From positions 1 to 47,474 of the forward strand of contig JARKPR010000072.1 in the NCBI GenBank assembly GCA_029975165.1: a stretch of DNA of 47,474 bases, read 5' to 3'. The position numbers and the translations under genes were made by a program. Under the pieces are notes generated by a model. The model had not been told where the DNA came from. It made no database searches and worked only from the letters and a program-made list of their open reading frames with translations. This stretch comes from Selenomonadales bacterium (GTDB lineage: Bacteria > Bacillota > Negativicutes > Sporomusales > UBA7701). This document shows, in pieces, positions 36,558 through 41,173 of this stretch (position 1 is its first letter; each line of letters begins with the position of its first letter).

Positions 36558-36616
36558 GACGCGGGAAGGCCCGGTCGCGGCCGGAGAAGTTCGCGAAAGA
36601 ATTTCGCTAGTAATTA

Positions 36617-36646
36617 TTGACACCGGCGGCAGGATGTGTTTATAAT
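36617..36646 (+). promoter_or_regulatory. Strong promoter of feoAB
   Basis: Consensus TTGACA at 36617-36622 and TATAAT at 36641-36646 with an 18-base spacer. The expected transcription start is near 36653. Confidence 0.85.
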
Positions 36647-36652
36647 ATCAAT

Positions 36653-36671
36653 GATAATGATACTCAATATC
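36653..36671. promoter_or_regulatory. Fur box at the feoAB transcription start
   Basis: GATAATGATACTCAATATC matches the classical 19-bp Fur consensus at 17 positions and overlaps the predicted start site. A second, weaker Fur-like 7-1-7 site, TGAGAATCATTCCCA, lies at 36750-36764. Iron-dependent repression of feoAB is expected. Confidence 0.82.
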
Positions 36672-36740
36672 GCCGTTGAGTGTCTTTCGTGACTAAAAAA
36701 GAAAGACGGCGAGTATCCTTGCGAAAGGATTTTTATTTTA
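36659..36740 (+). promoter_or_regulatory. Structured feoAB leader with competing stem and terminator
   Basis: GATACTC (36659-36665) can pair with GAGTATC (36711-36717), enclosing inner stems GTCTTTC/GAAAGAC (36682-36688, 36701-36707). The 3' strand of the outer stem overlaps ATCCTT (36715-36720), which alternatively pairs with AAGGAT (36725-36730) to form a terminator followed by TTTTATTTT. The two pairings exclude each other. Confidence 0.5.
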
Positions 36741-36798
36741 ACGTTTAAATGAGAATCATTCCCAAAATCTGATTATATACCATGAGGAGGCCAATATT

Positions 36799-37026
36799 AT
36801 GAGAACGCTCGACCAGTTGAACCCCGGCGAAGCAGGCGTGGTAACGAAAGTGACGGGGAGCGGGGCGATTAAGCGCCGGATCGTGGATATGGGGCTTGTC
36901 GCCGGAACGGCGATCAAGGTGCAGAAGTTCGCGCCGCTGGGCGATCCGATGGAGGTCAAGGTGAAAAACTTCAATCTCTCCCTGCGGAAAACGGAGGCCG
37001 CCTTGATCGAGATCCAGACGCCGTGA
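36799..37026 (+). CDS. feoA: Ferrous iron transport protein A
   Basis: A 75-residue SH3-like FeoA that assists FeoB in ferrous iron uptake. GEAGVVTKVTGSGAIKRRIVDMGLVAGTAIKV is the family core (about 11-42). SD GAGGAGG precedes the ATG. It is the first gene after the Fur-controlled promoter and structured leader. feoB begins 46 bases downstream. Confidence 0.93.
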   Translation: MRTLDQLNPGEAGVVTKVTGSGAIKRRIVDMGLVAGTAIKVQKFAPLGDPMEVKVKNFNLSLRKTEAALIEIQTP

Positions 37027-37072: not shown

Positions 37073-39403
37073 ATGGCAACGGATACTTTGACGGTGGCCC
37101 TGGCGGGTAACCCGAATTCCGGCAAGACGACGATTTTCAATAATATCACCGGCGCCCGCCAGCACGTGGGCAATTACCCCGGCGTGACGGTGGAGAGGCG
37201 GGAAGGTTTCCGCCGTTTCCACGGCAAGGATTTGCTGCTGGTCGACCTGCCGGGGACCTACAGCCTGACGGCCCATTCGCTGGATGAGCTGGTGGCGCGC
37301 AACGTGATCATCAACGATAGACCGGAAATCATTATAAATATTCTCGACGCTTCCAACCTGGAGCGCAATCTTTATCTGGCGGTGCAGCTCCTGGAACTCG
37401 AGCGGCCGATGGTGCTGGCCCTGAACATGACGGACGTGGCCGAGAAGATGGGCTCGAGGGTGGACGATGCGCTGCTGAGCCGCAAGCTCGGCATCGCGGT
37501 GGTCCATACGGTGGGCAACCGCAACCAGGGCACGGACGATCTCCTCCAGACGGTGGTCGACGCCGCGGCGCAAAACAAGCGGCAGCCGTTCGTGCTGGAT
37601 TACGGCCCGGAGCTCGAAGCGAAGATCAAGGAGATGGCCGACGCTCTCGCCGCGCTGACCGCGGTGAAGTATCCCCTGCGCTGGCTGGCGGTCAAACTGC
37701 TGGAAAACGACCAGGAGGTGCATAAGACGATCGGCCGTGTTCCGGACGGGGAAAAAATACTGGCCATGGTCGATAAAGCGCGGCTGGAGCTGAAGGCGAC
37801 GTTTGCCGACGATCCCGAGCTTGTCATCGCCGAGCGCCGCTATCAGTTCGTCGGCGAAATCTACCGGGAAGTGGCCGTTTCCCGCCAGGATCTGTCCCGG
37901 ACGGTATCGGACAGAATCGACGATGTCCTGACCCACCGCGTTTTCGGTTTGCCGATCTTTTTCGGCGTCATGTGGCTGCTGTTCAATATCGTTTTCACGG
38001 TCGGCGCCTATCCGCAGGGCTGGATCGAGGACGGGACGAAATGGCTGGGCGGGATGGCGGGCCAGTACATGGCCGACGGCGATCTGAAATCGCTGGTGGT
38101 GGACGGCATCATCGGCGGCGTCGGCGGCGTTGTCGTCTTTCTCCCCAATATTATCCTCCTCTTTTTGGGTATCGCCCTGCTGGAGGACACCGGCTACATG
38201 GCCCGGGCGGCCTTCGTCATGGACAGGGTGATGCGGGCGGTCGGCCTGCACGGCAAGTCGTTCATCCCGCTGCTGGTGGGCTTCGGCTGCAGCGTACCCG
38301 CCATAATGGGCACCCGTACCCTGGAAAACCCCCGCGACCGGATGGTCACCATCCTGGTCGCCCCCCTGATGAGCTGTAGCGCCCGGCTGCCGGTGTATAC
38401 CCTGCTGACGGCCGCCTTTTTCACCGAAGGGATCGCCGGCACCGTCCTGTTTTCGGTTTATTTCGCCGGCATCGCCCTGGCCGTCGTGATGGCGTTCGTT
38501 TTCCGCAAGCTGCTGTTTCCCGGCGCGGCCGAGGCTTTCGTCATGGAGATGCCGCCTTATCATCTGCCGACGCTGCGCAGCATCCTCACCCATATGTGGG
38601 AACGGAGCGTGCTGTATCTGAAAAAGGCCGGGACGTTGATCCTGGCCGCCTCGATCCTGGTGTGGTTCGCCACCAATTACCCCGCCGACATCGAGTACAG
38701 CAAGGATTACGACCAGGCGAAAGCGCAGGTCGAGGAACAGTTCTCCGCCCAGGCCGCCGCGGAAGTGCTCGGGCCGCTGAAAATCGAGAAACCGGAAGAC
38801 AACGCGGCCTTTACGGCGCTGGTCGGCGGAATCGCGGCCGCCCACGCCGACCAGGCCGCCGCCGAAGACGCAGTCGCCGCCAAGCTGGCCGAGCTCGAGC
38901 AGGCCCGGCCGGAGATTTACCCCCATGCCGTGCGGTACTACGAGCTGGAGCAGGAGAAAAAAGCGGCCGCCGACAAGCTCGACAAGGAGCAGGCCGGCGA
39001 GAAACTGGCCAACAGCTACGCCGGGCGCCTCGGGCAAACGATCGAACCGGTCATCCGGCCGCTGGGCTTCGATTGGAAAATCGGCGTCGGCCTGGTGTCG
39101 GCGATGGCCGCCAAGGAGGTGCTGGTCAGCACCCTCGGCACCATCTACAGCGTGGGCGAGGTAGAGGACGACGCGACGTCGCTGCAGGAGGCCCTGGCCG
39201 CCGACGCGGCCTTCAGCCCGCTGGTCGCCTATACGCTGATGATTTTCACGCTGGTCTATTCGCCCTGCCTGGCGGCGCTGGCCGTCCTGCGCCGGGAAAC
39301 CAACTCGTGGAAATGGACGGCCTTCAGTTTCACTTATTCCACCGTCCTGGCCTGGGTAATCGCCTTCGGCATTTACCAGGTCGGCACGATGCTGGGGTAT
39401 TAG
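37073..39403 (+). CDS. feoB: Ferrous iron transporter B
   Basis: A 776-residue membrane protein. The N-terminal G domain has G1 GNPNSGKTT (12-20), the switch GNYPGVTVE, G3 DLPGTYSL and G4 NMTD. A helical spacer and two gate domains follow, with about eight spans, including VGFGCSVPAIMGTRTL and the second gate SAMAAKEVLVSTLGT. A charged, Ala/Glu-rich, probably coiled-coil insert of about 100 residues (roughly 541-645) lies between gate spans. It drives ferrous iron uptake and is Fur-controlled through the promoter at 36617. Confidence 0.95.
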   Translation: MATDTLTVALAGNPNSGKTTIFNNITGARQHVGNYPGVTVERREGFRRFHGKDLLLVDLPGTYSLTAHSLDELVARNVIINDRPEIIINILDASNLERNLYLAVQLLELERPMVLALNMTDVAEKMGSRVDDALLSRKLGIAVVHTVGNRNQGTDDLLQTVVDAAAQNKRQPFVLDYGPELEAKIKEMADALAALTAVKYPLRWLAVKLLENDQEVHKTIGRVPDGEKILAMVDKARLELKATFADDPELVIAERRYQFVGEIYREVAVSRQDLSRTVSDRIDDVLTHRVFGLPIFFGVMWLLFNIVFTVGAYPQGWIEDGTKWLGGMAGQYMADGDLKSLVVDGIIGGVGGVVVFLPNIILLFLGIALLEDTGYMARAAFVMDRVMRAVGLHGKSFIPLLVGFGCSVPAIMGTRTLENPRDRMVTILVAPLMSCSARLPVYTLLTAAFFTEGIAGTVLFSVYFAGIALAVVMAFVFRKLLFPGAAEAFVMEMPPYHLPTLRSILTHMWERSVLYLKKAGTLILAASILVWFATNYPADIEYSKDYDQAKAQVEEQFSAQAAAEVLGPLKIEKPEDNAAFTALVGGIAAAHADQAAAEDAVAAKLAELEQARPEIYPHAVRYYELEQEKKAAADKLDKEQAGEKLANSYAGRLGQTIEPVIRPLGFDWKIGVGLVSAMAAKEVLVSTLGTIYSVGEVEDDATSLQEALAADAAFSPLVAYTLMIFTLVYSPCLAALAVLRRETNSWKWTAFSFTYSTVLAWVIAFGIYQVGTMLGY

Positions 39404-39448: not shown

Positions 39449-40507
39449 ATGGTAACCAAGCTGCGGCTGACCCTGTTGGCCTTGGCGCTTATCCCTCAGG
39501 CCGTTATTTACGGCATGGCTTCCGGCTCCCCGTTGGCCGCCGACCGGTTATTCGGCCAGATTCAGGCGGCTTCCCTGGCGAGCGCGCTGCTCACGGCCCT
39601 CGCGTCCCCCGGCCTGGTGCTGGAATGGCTCGTCGGCAAGCCGCTCCGCGAGTTGTCGGACTTTTGCGCCCGGCTCAAGCGGGGGAATTACCGGGAACGG
39701 CTGCCTTTGCCCAATGAGGCCCGCGACGGGGACGGCGAGGACGGTATGACCATCCTTATGCGCGACATGAACTGGATGGCCCGCCAGATCGAGATCAGGG
39801 AAAGAGATCTGCGCCAGGCGGTCGATGCCGTGGCGGCATCCCACCGGCTGGTCGACGAGAAAAACGACTATCTTACGCGGATGAACCGGGAATTGGCGGC
39901 AACCCGTGACAGCCTGCAGGAAAGAACCCGCGAGCTGGAGCAGTTGTGCCGCCAGATGCAGGTGATGGCGATGACCGATTCGCTCACCGCCATCGCCAAC
40001 CGGCGCTGCTTTTTCGAGGCCCTCCAGCAGCAGTCCGCCATCCTCGCCTGCAACGGCCCCTGCCTGCCCCTGTCGCTGCTCGTGTTCGATATCGACCGGT
40101 TTAAAACCGTCAACGACATTTACGGGCACGAGGCCGGCGACAAAGTTATCCGGGATATCGCCGCGATTATCCGGGACAATACCAGGGAGGGCGACCTGGC
40201 GGCCAGGATCGGCGGGGAGGAGTATGCGCTCCTTCTGCCGGGGGCCTCCGCCCGGCAGGCCGAGGAGGTAGCGTGCCGCATCCGGGAGGCGGTAGCGGCC
40301 TGCGCGTTTGTCCTGGCCGATGAGCGGCAAGTATCGGTAACGGTTTCTATCGGCGTTTGCACCCTTGCGCAGTTTGCCTGCCTGGAGCGGGGCAACCTAT
40401 ACAGCTTTGCCGATCGAGCGCTTTATCATGCCAAGCGCAGCGGGCGAAACAGCATCTCCGTTTATGATTCCGACGCCTGCTCGGTAAGAAGGGTCGACTG
40501 CGCATAG
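39449..40507 (+). CDS. Membrane-anchored diguanylate cyclase
   Basis: A 352-residue protein with hydrophobic segments at about 5-22 and 42-60, a HAMP-like linker and a coiled coil (110-170). The C-terminal GGDEF domain starts at MTDSLTAIANRRCF. The active loop is GGEEY (255-259), and the product-inhibition motif R246-E-G-D249 lies five residues before it. It should therefore be an active, feedback-controlled c-di-GMP synthase. An AGGGGAGG SD precedes the ATG. It lies 45 bases after feoB and 21 bases before an HD-GYP gene. Confidence 0.93.
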   Translation: MVTKLRLTLLALALIPQAVIYGMASGSPLAADRLFGQIQAASLASALLTALASPGLVLEWLVGKPLRELSDFCARLKRGNYRERLPLPNEARDGDGEDGMTILMRDMNWMARQIEIRERDLRQAVDAVAASHRLVDEKNDYLTRMNRELAATRDSLQERTRELEQLCRQMQVMAMTDSLTAIANRRCFFEALQQQSAILACNGPCLPLSLLVFDIDRFKTVNDIYGHEAGDKVIRDIAAIIRDNTREGDLAARIGGEEYALLLPGASARQAEEVACRIREAVAACAFVLADERQVSVTVSIGVCTLAQFACLERGNLYSFADRALYHAKRSGRNSISVYDSDACSVRRVDCA

Positions 40508-40528
40508 GCTTGGGAAAGGGTGTTGATT

Positions 40529-41173
40529 TTGCAGCTTTTGTCTCAATGGGAAGATTTGCACGAGCTTGTCGAAGCGCTGGCTACCGCGTTGGACGCGAAA
40601 AACCCCTTTATGTGCGGCCATTCCGAGCGGGTGGCCGAGATGGCCCTGCTACTGGCCCAAGAAATGGGGCTGTGCCCGGCGATGCAGGCGGTAATCCATA
40701 TCGGCGCCCATCTGCACGATATAGGCAAGATCGGCGTTCCCGACTTTGTTCTCAATAAACCCGGCAAGCTGACGGCAACGGAATTGATCATGATCCGCCA
40801 GCACCCGGAAATCGGCAGTAATATTTTAAGCAAAATCAAGGTTCTGCGCCCGGTCCTCGATATTGTGCGCCACCATCACGAGCGCTACGACGGCCAGGGT
40901 TACCCCGACGGTCTGAGTGGCGGGGAGTTTTCCCTGGGGGCCAGAATCGTGGCTGCCGCCGACGCTTTCGACGCGATGACGAGCGAGCGGCCATACCGCC
41001 CGGCGTTGTCCGTCCGCGCGGCGATGCGCGAAATGCAGCGCTGCCGGGGCGGCCAGTTCGATCCGGCCGTCGTCGACGCCCTGATCGCGCTCGACGATAA
41101 GGACAGGATATGCATCCCCGGCGGCCGGGGTAATGCCCGCCGGCCGGCGGATACTGTCAGTTGCTATCAGTAA
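40529..41173 (+). CDS. HD-GYP domain phosphodiesterase
   Basis: A 214-residue single-domain HD-GYP protein expected to hydrolyse c-di-GMP. H31 in CGHSERVAEMA, H63-D64 in HLHDIGKIGVPD and the HHHERYDGQGYPDGLSG stretch are intact. GTG at 40520 overlaps the SD; TTG at 40529, eight bases after AAAGGG, gives MQLLSQWEDL and is preferred. Adjacent to the diguanylate cyclase, it makes an opposing make/break pair. No sensor domain of its own is present. Confidence 0.9.
   Translation: MQLLSQWEDLHELVEALATALDAKNPFMCGHSERVAEMALLLAQEMGLCPAMQAVIHIGAHLHDIGKIGVPDFVLNKPGKLTATELIMIRQHPEIGSNILSKIKVLRPVLDIVRHHHERYDGQGYPDGLSGGEFSLGARIVAAADAFDAMTSERPYRPALSVRAAMREMQRCRGGQFDPAVVDALIALDDKDRICIPGGRGNARRPADTVSCYQ

Follow-up and report, generated by a model that had tools for sequence, protein, structure and literature searches.

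The window analysed here, a 47,474-nucleotide stretch of DNA from a Selenomonadales bacterium, carries on its plus strand the genes feoA (36799-37026; Pfam FeoA, 8.6e-21) and feoB (37073-39403; Pfam FeoB_N, 8.9e-63, and FeoB_C). By eye, feoB is followed at 39449-41173 by diguanylate-cyclase-like and HD-GYP-like genes, which in some relatives lie upstream of feoA. The leader of the two genes, on the same strand, opens with a sigma-70 type promoter (P1; TTGACA-18-TATAAT, 36617-36646) that matches the consensus at 12/12 positions, as an earlier preliminary description of this DNA had stated. Just 3' of the -10 element lies a distal operator, Fur box 1 (36652-36671). Fur boxes were scored against GATAATGATAATCATTATC and TGATAATGATTATCA, which we take to be the Fur box consensus, and the 19-mer GATAATGATACTCAATATC at 36653-36671 matched the former at 17/19 positions, in agreement with the earlier claim, and the latter at 13/15. 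Further downstream are a weak terminator-like hairpin (ATCCTT-GCGA-AAGGAT, 36715-36730), a T-tract (TTTTTATTTT, 36730-36739) whose position is conserved in relatives, and a 10-nt spacer (36740-36749) that is conserved in length and not in sequence. The spacer leads to a proximal operator, Fur box 2 (TGAGAATCATTCCCA, 36750-36764), and then to the feoA Shine-Dalgarno sequence GAGGAGG (36784-36790). The hairpin and T-tract thus stand ahead of the Shine-Dalgarno sequence where they had been described, but Fur box 2 had been overlooked. It is the weaker box of the window (11/15 positions versus 13/15 for box 1, with an overlapping 19-mer at 36745 scoring 13/19), begins exactly 10 nt beyond the end of the T-tract, and is kept both within the genus and in other families. 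Both boxes match the Fur operator consensus and are putative Fur binding sites; the host genome has six Fur-family matches.

A search for the leader DNA in 100 relatives returned 18 matches, mostly over the promoter and Fur box 1 only. Three same-genus genomes (G001, G002, and G004) retain P1 and Fur box 1 together with the hairpin, the T-tract, and Fur box 2, and no close feoA was found in the fourth same-genus genome (G003). In these three, about 200-270 nt that are absent from the window lie between Fur box 1 and the hairpin. In G004, the stretch from P1 to the hairpin contains a reading frame with a Fur-family-like end (best PDB match PerR, 9.3e-5), and DNA of G001 aligns to it. A frame just upstream of feoA in G012 likewise has a Fur-family-like C-terminus (best PDB match PerR, 0.0015). 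Pfam gave no hit for the Fur-like remnants of either genome. Perhaps, then, the window leader arose by shortening from an ancestral leader that contained a gene. At the G004 locus (L003), feoA (around 1583-1810) matches in two frames and the remainder gave no match to feoB, which may reflect genuine gene decay or faulty assembly.

Genomes of the host class contained 95 FeoA places at E <= 1e-20, of which 81 leaders were read; the 14 unread places all belong to family f30. A feoA-proximal Fur box was found in 55 of the 81 leaders, and 26 had no proximal box of at least 13/19 (G020 has just 29 nt upstream). The proximal boxes comprised 28 that directly follow a promoter, termed promoter-type here, and 27 that do not. 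With a T-tract window and a promoter cut-off that were chosen after the sequences had been seen, a T-tract at the position occupied in the window was present at none of the 28 promoter-type boxes versus 17 of the 27 other boxes; it was absent from the expected place in 10 of the 27. Shuffling the upstream 60 nt produced a mean of 2.3 and a maximum of 7 T-tracts in 2000 trials (17 observed), and an A-tract control put through the identical test gave 1/27. This strand bias (17 T versus 1 A) fits a terminator. The 17 T-tract leaders are spread over six families, two of which contribute 11, and the leaders are related by descent, while our binomial tests ignore kinship and local composition.

The 3' edge of the T-tract is sharp. 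Counting from the start of TGAKAAT in the 27 leaders, the fraction of T is 0.78 at position -11 and 0.11 at -10. In an alignment of 42 leaders (27 feoA and 15 feoA2, the paralogue described below), a T-run could be counted in 34, and the gap from T-run to box was 10 nt in 24 leaders, 9 nt in four, 11 nt in four, and another length in two. Seven of the 42 have no T-run ending 7-16 nt ahead of the box and G046 has too few T residues; the feoA2 of G012 was omitted from the alignment for want of an anchor. In several cases another promoter, accompanied by a Fur box, is found at a distal position, either within the same leader or before upstream genes, and by eye the genes upstream of some feoA leaders encode GGDEF-, DUF2325-, and small STAS-like proteins. 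Promoter matches were scored in the 15 feoA2 leaders and in 13 feoA leaders, the latter selected as double-box or gene-X cases. The best match at box 2 reached 6-9/12 positions, whereas the distal site reached 10-12/12 in 15/15 feoA2 and 11/13 feoA leaders. Given these weak matches (at most 9/12), a promoter at box 2 was rejected as a general explanation.

The same arrangement occurs at a second locus. The host genome has a paralogous feoA2-feoB2 (contig C3, L132, 1401-3011), its FeoA identified by Pfam. A search of this genome for Fur-like sites of the form TGANAATNATT gave 39 hits, and by eye the 30 loci that were read looked mostly like chance matches; one of the sites is the feoA2 leader. 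This leader has the same order of promoter, Fur box, hairpin, and Fur box; its hairpin is unrelated and stronger, and its gap measures 11 nt. Across the host order, feoA2 is present in 16 of 28 genomes, and 15 of the 16 leaders show a promoter (10-12/12), box 1, T-tract, 9-11 nt, and box 2. The exception is G012, which has one box, and in G005 the tract is TTTT only. In each of the 15 double-box leaders, box 2 lies 43-65 nt past the -10 and coincides with a promoter match of at most 9/12; hairpin sequences differ among them. In these 15 leaders, as in the window, a predicted operator without a strong promoter of its own lies 3' of a strong promoter, in what should be transcribed DNA. As box 2 lacks a good promoter, transcription should arrive at feoA2 by reading through the T-tract.

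This design is absent from a further set of feoA paralogues, all 17 of which were retrieved. Visual inspection showed one Fur-like box downstream of a -10-like sequence in five of the 17 and repeated GTTAGC-N4-GCTAAC palindromes ahead of the other 12 (L207, L208, L211, L214-L217, and L219-L223); several of these repeats are followed by a T-tract of their own, and they are possibly operators of a different metal regulator. Two further places (L040 and L041, in G019 and G021) have their FeoA match within open frames of 288 and 285 aa, the upstream part of which looks HD-type-like by eye, so that these may be FeoA fusions.

The T-tract and its spacing are better conserved than the hairpin, since several T-tract leaders (G027b, G024, G026, G013a, and others, and the feoA2 of G005) have no hairpin at that place. 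The bare hairpin of the window is weak (-5.2 kcal/mol) and was not listed by a simple terminator scan. Its significance against shuffled sequence depends on the piece that is folded: 4/200 shuffles fold as well as the terminator piece 36711-36740, and a 34-nt piece made of the hairpin and its upstream flank gives p = 0.185. Over the set of leaders, hairpins 5' of the T-tract reached p < 0.05 against their own shuffles in 13/35 cases (combined 5e-10; one of the 13, in G046, is without such a T-tract), compared with 1/28 promoter-type controls, whose combined value of 0.012 marks a mild excess of structure. Covariation among six close feoA2 hairpins was not above that of shuffles, as 339/500 shuffles reach the count.

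We also took a gene-blind approach and scanned genomes in full for TTTTT followed, after 4-30 nt, by a strong Fur box. In 300 genomes of the host class, gaps of 9-11 nt were found at 16 of 24 sites (binomial 1.6e-10, under assumptions of a uniform gap and independent sites that are only roughly true). These 16 sites are mostly feo leaders, with 11 feoA2 and two feoA1. Among the 13 sites outside the leaders already read, five had gaps of 9-11 nt, all of exactly 10 (p 0.01 for gaps of 9-11, 7e-5 for a gap of 10). The five new sites stand beside a feoA2, a feoA, a DUF2325 operon, an FTR1 gene (Pfam 5.2e-34), and a TonB-receptor-like gene, the fragment of which scores 23.7 against a Pfam cut-off of 23.9. 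A scan of the host order gave 13 boxes, 11 with gaps of 9-11 nt, nearly all within the class scan; a first version with the pattern TTTTN{3,30}TGAKAATSA was dropped as too loose. The scan of 391 genomes of another class returned 27 rows, or 24 distinct boxes, and gaps of 9-11 nt at 11 of the 24 (2e-5). Two of the 11 (L298 and L299) seem to lie in coding sequence, as copies of a single gene, and without both the count is 9/22 (3e-4). The genes by the sites in this class include DUF2325, feoB, and fur, and in one genome (G440) the module occurs twice, ahead of DUF2325 and ahead of a FeoA-like gene.

A different reading had been offered in the preliminary description, which suggested that the leader may be a new iron-responsive or protein-bound RNA element with an outer stem, GATACTC (36659-36665) with GAGTATC (36711-36717), whose 3' strand overlaps the terminator hairpin. 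The stem does form in the best fold of a transcript ending before the terminator (36653-36717, -16.2 kcal/mol; 4/200 shuffles fold as well), but it goes unused in the best fold of 36653-36740, which includes the terminator. The overlap is likewise real but amounts to 3 nt only (36715-36717). A Watson-Crick helix of at least 7 bp appears in 62/1000 shuffles of 36653-36717, and the 5' strand of the stem falls inside Fur box 1. In the alignment of G000, G001, and G004 (G002 lies outside it), just 5/7 outer-stem pairs are possible in G001 and 5/7 in G004, on which count conservation of the stem was rejected; the hairpin keeps 6/6 pairs in both, one as G-U in G004. No conserved aptamer or antiterminator structure was seen in the G001/G004 alignment or in the feoA2 leaders, which, being short and varied in hairpin sequence, reveal no shared aptamer. 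Rfam found no family at gathering score over the whole window, and a permissive search of 36560-36830 gave four chance-level hits, all far below their own gathering scores. NiCo (czcD) riboswitches reportedly respond to iron, and the iron control of transport genes through a leader RNA that is said to be proposed for them is a point of likeness; the window leader differs in that neither an Rfam match nor a conserved RNA structure was found for it. The surroundings of the hairpin also differ within the genus, and the leaders of relatives are too short and too varied, so that a new riboswitch or protein-binding RNA attenuator appears very improbable despite the shared nucleotides and the good fold of the pre-terminator transcript. 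The outer stem is probably accidental, and we think it unlikely that the window leader is a novel RNA sensor. Nor is such a sensor needed, because a terminator backed by iron-loaded Fur as a wall at box 2 would account for the leader. The earlier idea that attenuation is layered on Fur control does fit. What is conserved, judging from sequence comparison, is a DNA geometry relative to the Fur operator.

Box 2 could alternatively be an ordinary operator over an unrecognised promoter, P2, with the hairpin and T-tract insulating it from upstream transcription. The presence of other genes upstream of some feoA leaders makes a terminator followed by a promoter a natural order, the GATAAT within Fur boxes is similar to a -10, and so, by eye, are short stretches in a few spacers (CATAAT in G022, TATAGT in G061). 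However, visual comparison of the spacers showed no -10-like sequence at a consistent position, the promoter matches at box 2 fall short of those at the distal site (6-9/12 versus 10-12/12), and in feoA2 the 43-65 nt that separate box 2 from the strong promoter upstream contain nothing to be insulated. We therefore regard P2 as unlikely, though it deserves some weight. The Fur-family-like frame ends in G004 and G012, with their PerR matches, and the G001 DNA alignable to the G004 stretch would suit another history, in which the hairpin is the leftover terminator of a lost Fur-family gene between P1 and feoA, and box 2 is an independent simple operator. This is improbable, as the same order and spacing are found where the -10 and box 2 are only 43-65 nt apart, in feoA2 leaders, or about 110 nt apart, in G023, and the spacing to box 2 is kept across families and loci. 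P1 might also drive a short small RNA under Fur control, with its 3' end at the hairpin, leaving feoAB to read-through. A promoter, a Fur box, and a terminator-like end are present, and the RNA would be about 87 nt long in the window from its inferred start, but its length and sequence are both unconserved even within the genus, and we give this reading hardly any credence.

We consider it probable that the leader works as a Fur switch with two layers, the second being Fur on box 2, which would hold polymerase at the U-tract of a weak terminator and thereby favour release. From the anatomy, the conserved spacing, and the absence of a strong promoter match at box 2, all of which are observed, we infer Fur binding at box 2, polymerase stalling, and RNA release. 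Fur on box 1 would repress P1, and polymerase that escapes P1 would meet a weak putative intrinsic terminator, the T-tract of which stops 10 nt short of box 2. When iron is present, Fur at this second box would form a roadblock, and the active site of polymerase would stop in the T-tract at about 36735-36736, where the stall may give the hairpin and the weak rU-dA hybrid time for release of the RNA. Without iron, both boxes would be empty, the weak terminator would mostly be passed, and feoAB would be transcribed from P1. The predicted stop was counted from published stall distances: polymerase stops 14 nt before the site of an EcoRI Gln111 roadblock (PMC5499547) and 15 bp before the binding site of a Reb1/Nsi1 roadblock (PMC12366685). 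Positions 14-15 nt before box 2 are 36736-36735, within the T-tract.

The closest precedents are the RNA polymerase I terminator of eukaryotes and, in Chlamydia, the regulator YtgR. YtgR is a DtxR-type repressor and not a Fur protein. At the trpR-trpB intergenic operator of Chlamydia trachomatis, YtgR is described as causing iron-dependent termination of upstream transcripts; as proposed here, an iron-dependent repressor bound 3' of a promoter promotes upstream termination, and iron starvation relieves it (PMC6504234). YtgR differs in also repressing an internal promoter at its operator, and a hairpin and T-tract at a fixed distance seem undescribed for it, as the word "terminator" is absent from the main text of that report (PMC6504234). 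The RNA polymerase I terminator (Reb1/Nsi1) shares the order of hairpin, T-rich stretch, and roadblock, with the stop lying in the T-rich stretch and release caused by the hairpin (PMC12366685). It differs in its polymerase, in being a constitutive rRNA gene end that is not metal-regulated, and in that its roadblock also inactivates Pol I (PMC12366685). Judged by anatomy, the window leader would work like a Pol I-type roadblock terminator without being a member of that class.

Repressors that bind in the transcribed region and block elongation, as do CodY, CcpA, PurR, GalR, and ArsR, are generally well known and are a further likeness, although the excerpted text mentions no coupling to a terminator at fixed distance and does not list Fur (PMC10310618). 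In Bacillus subtilis, intragenic Zur boxes are Fur-family sites in transcribed DNA for which an elongation block was tested, and mutating them raised expression 4- to 9-fold (PMC4324032). As expression was similar in a zur mutant, that effect was not shown to be due to Zur, and the word "terminator" is absent from that text (PMC4324032). A terminator is also not mentioned in the available part of a C. difficile Fur study (PMC6311696). A Fur site at a fixed distance past a terminator was not found described in the literature searched, which covered few subscription papers, and the leader is an instance of a conserved arrangement, a variant of repressor roadblock or attenuation that we did not find described.

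More tentatively, and as a possibility to be taken seriously, this Fur-clamped terminator may be a widespread bacterial module, convergent with the Pol I terminator, in which a metal-sensing repressor bound at a fixed 10 nt past a hairpin and T-tract tightens a leaky terminator at feo, FTR1, and other iron genes of this and at least one further class. The case cautions against taking every hairpin-bearing leader behind a Fur box for a riboswitch, and it makes roadblock-assisted intrinsic termination in bacteria directly testable. If our reading is true, a repressor roadblock and intrinsic termination would be coupled in a hard-wired manner, through a spacing rule that could be searched for in any genome and transferred to other repressors, and the presence in these iron operons of a second Fur box without a strong promoter would be explained.
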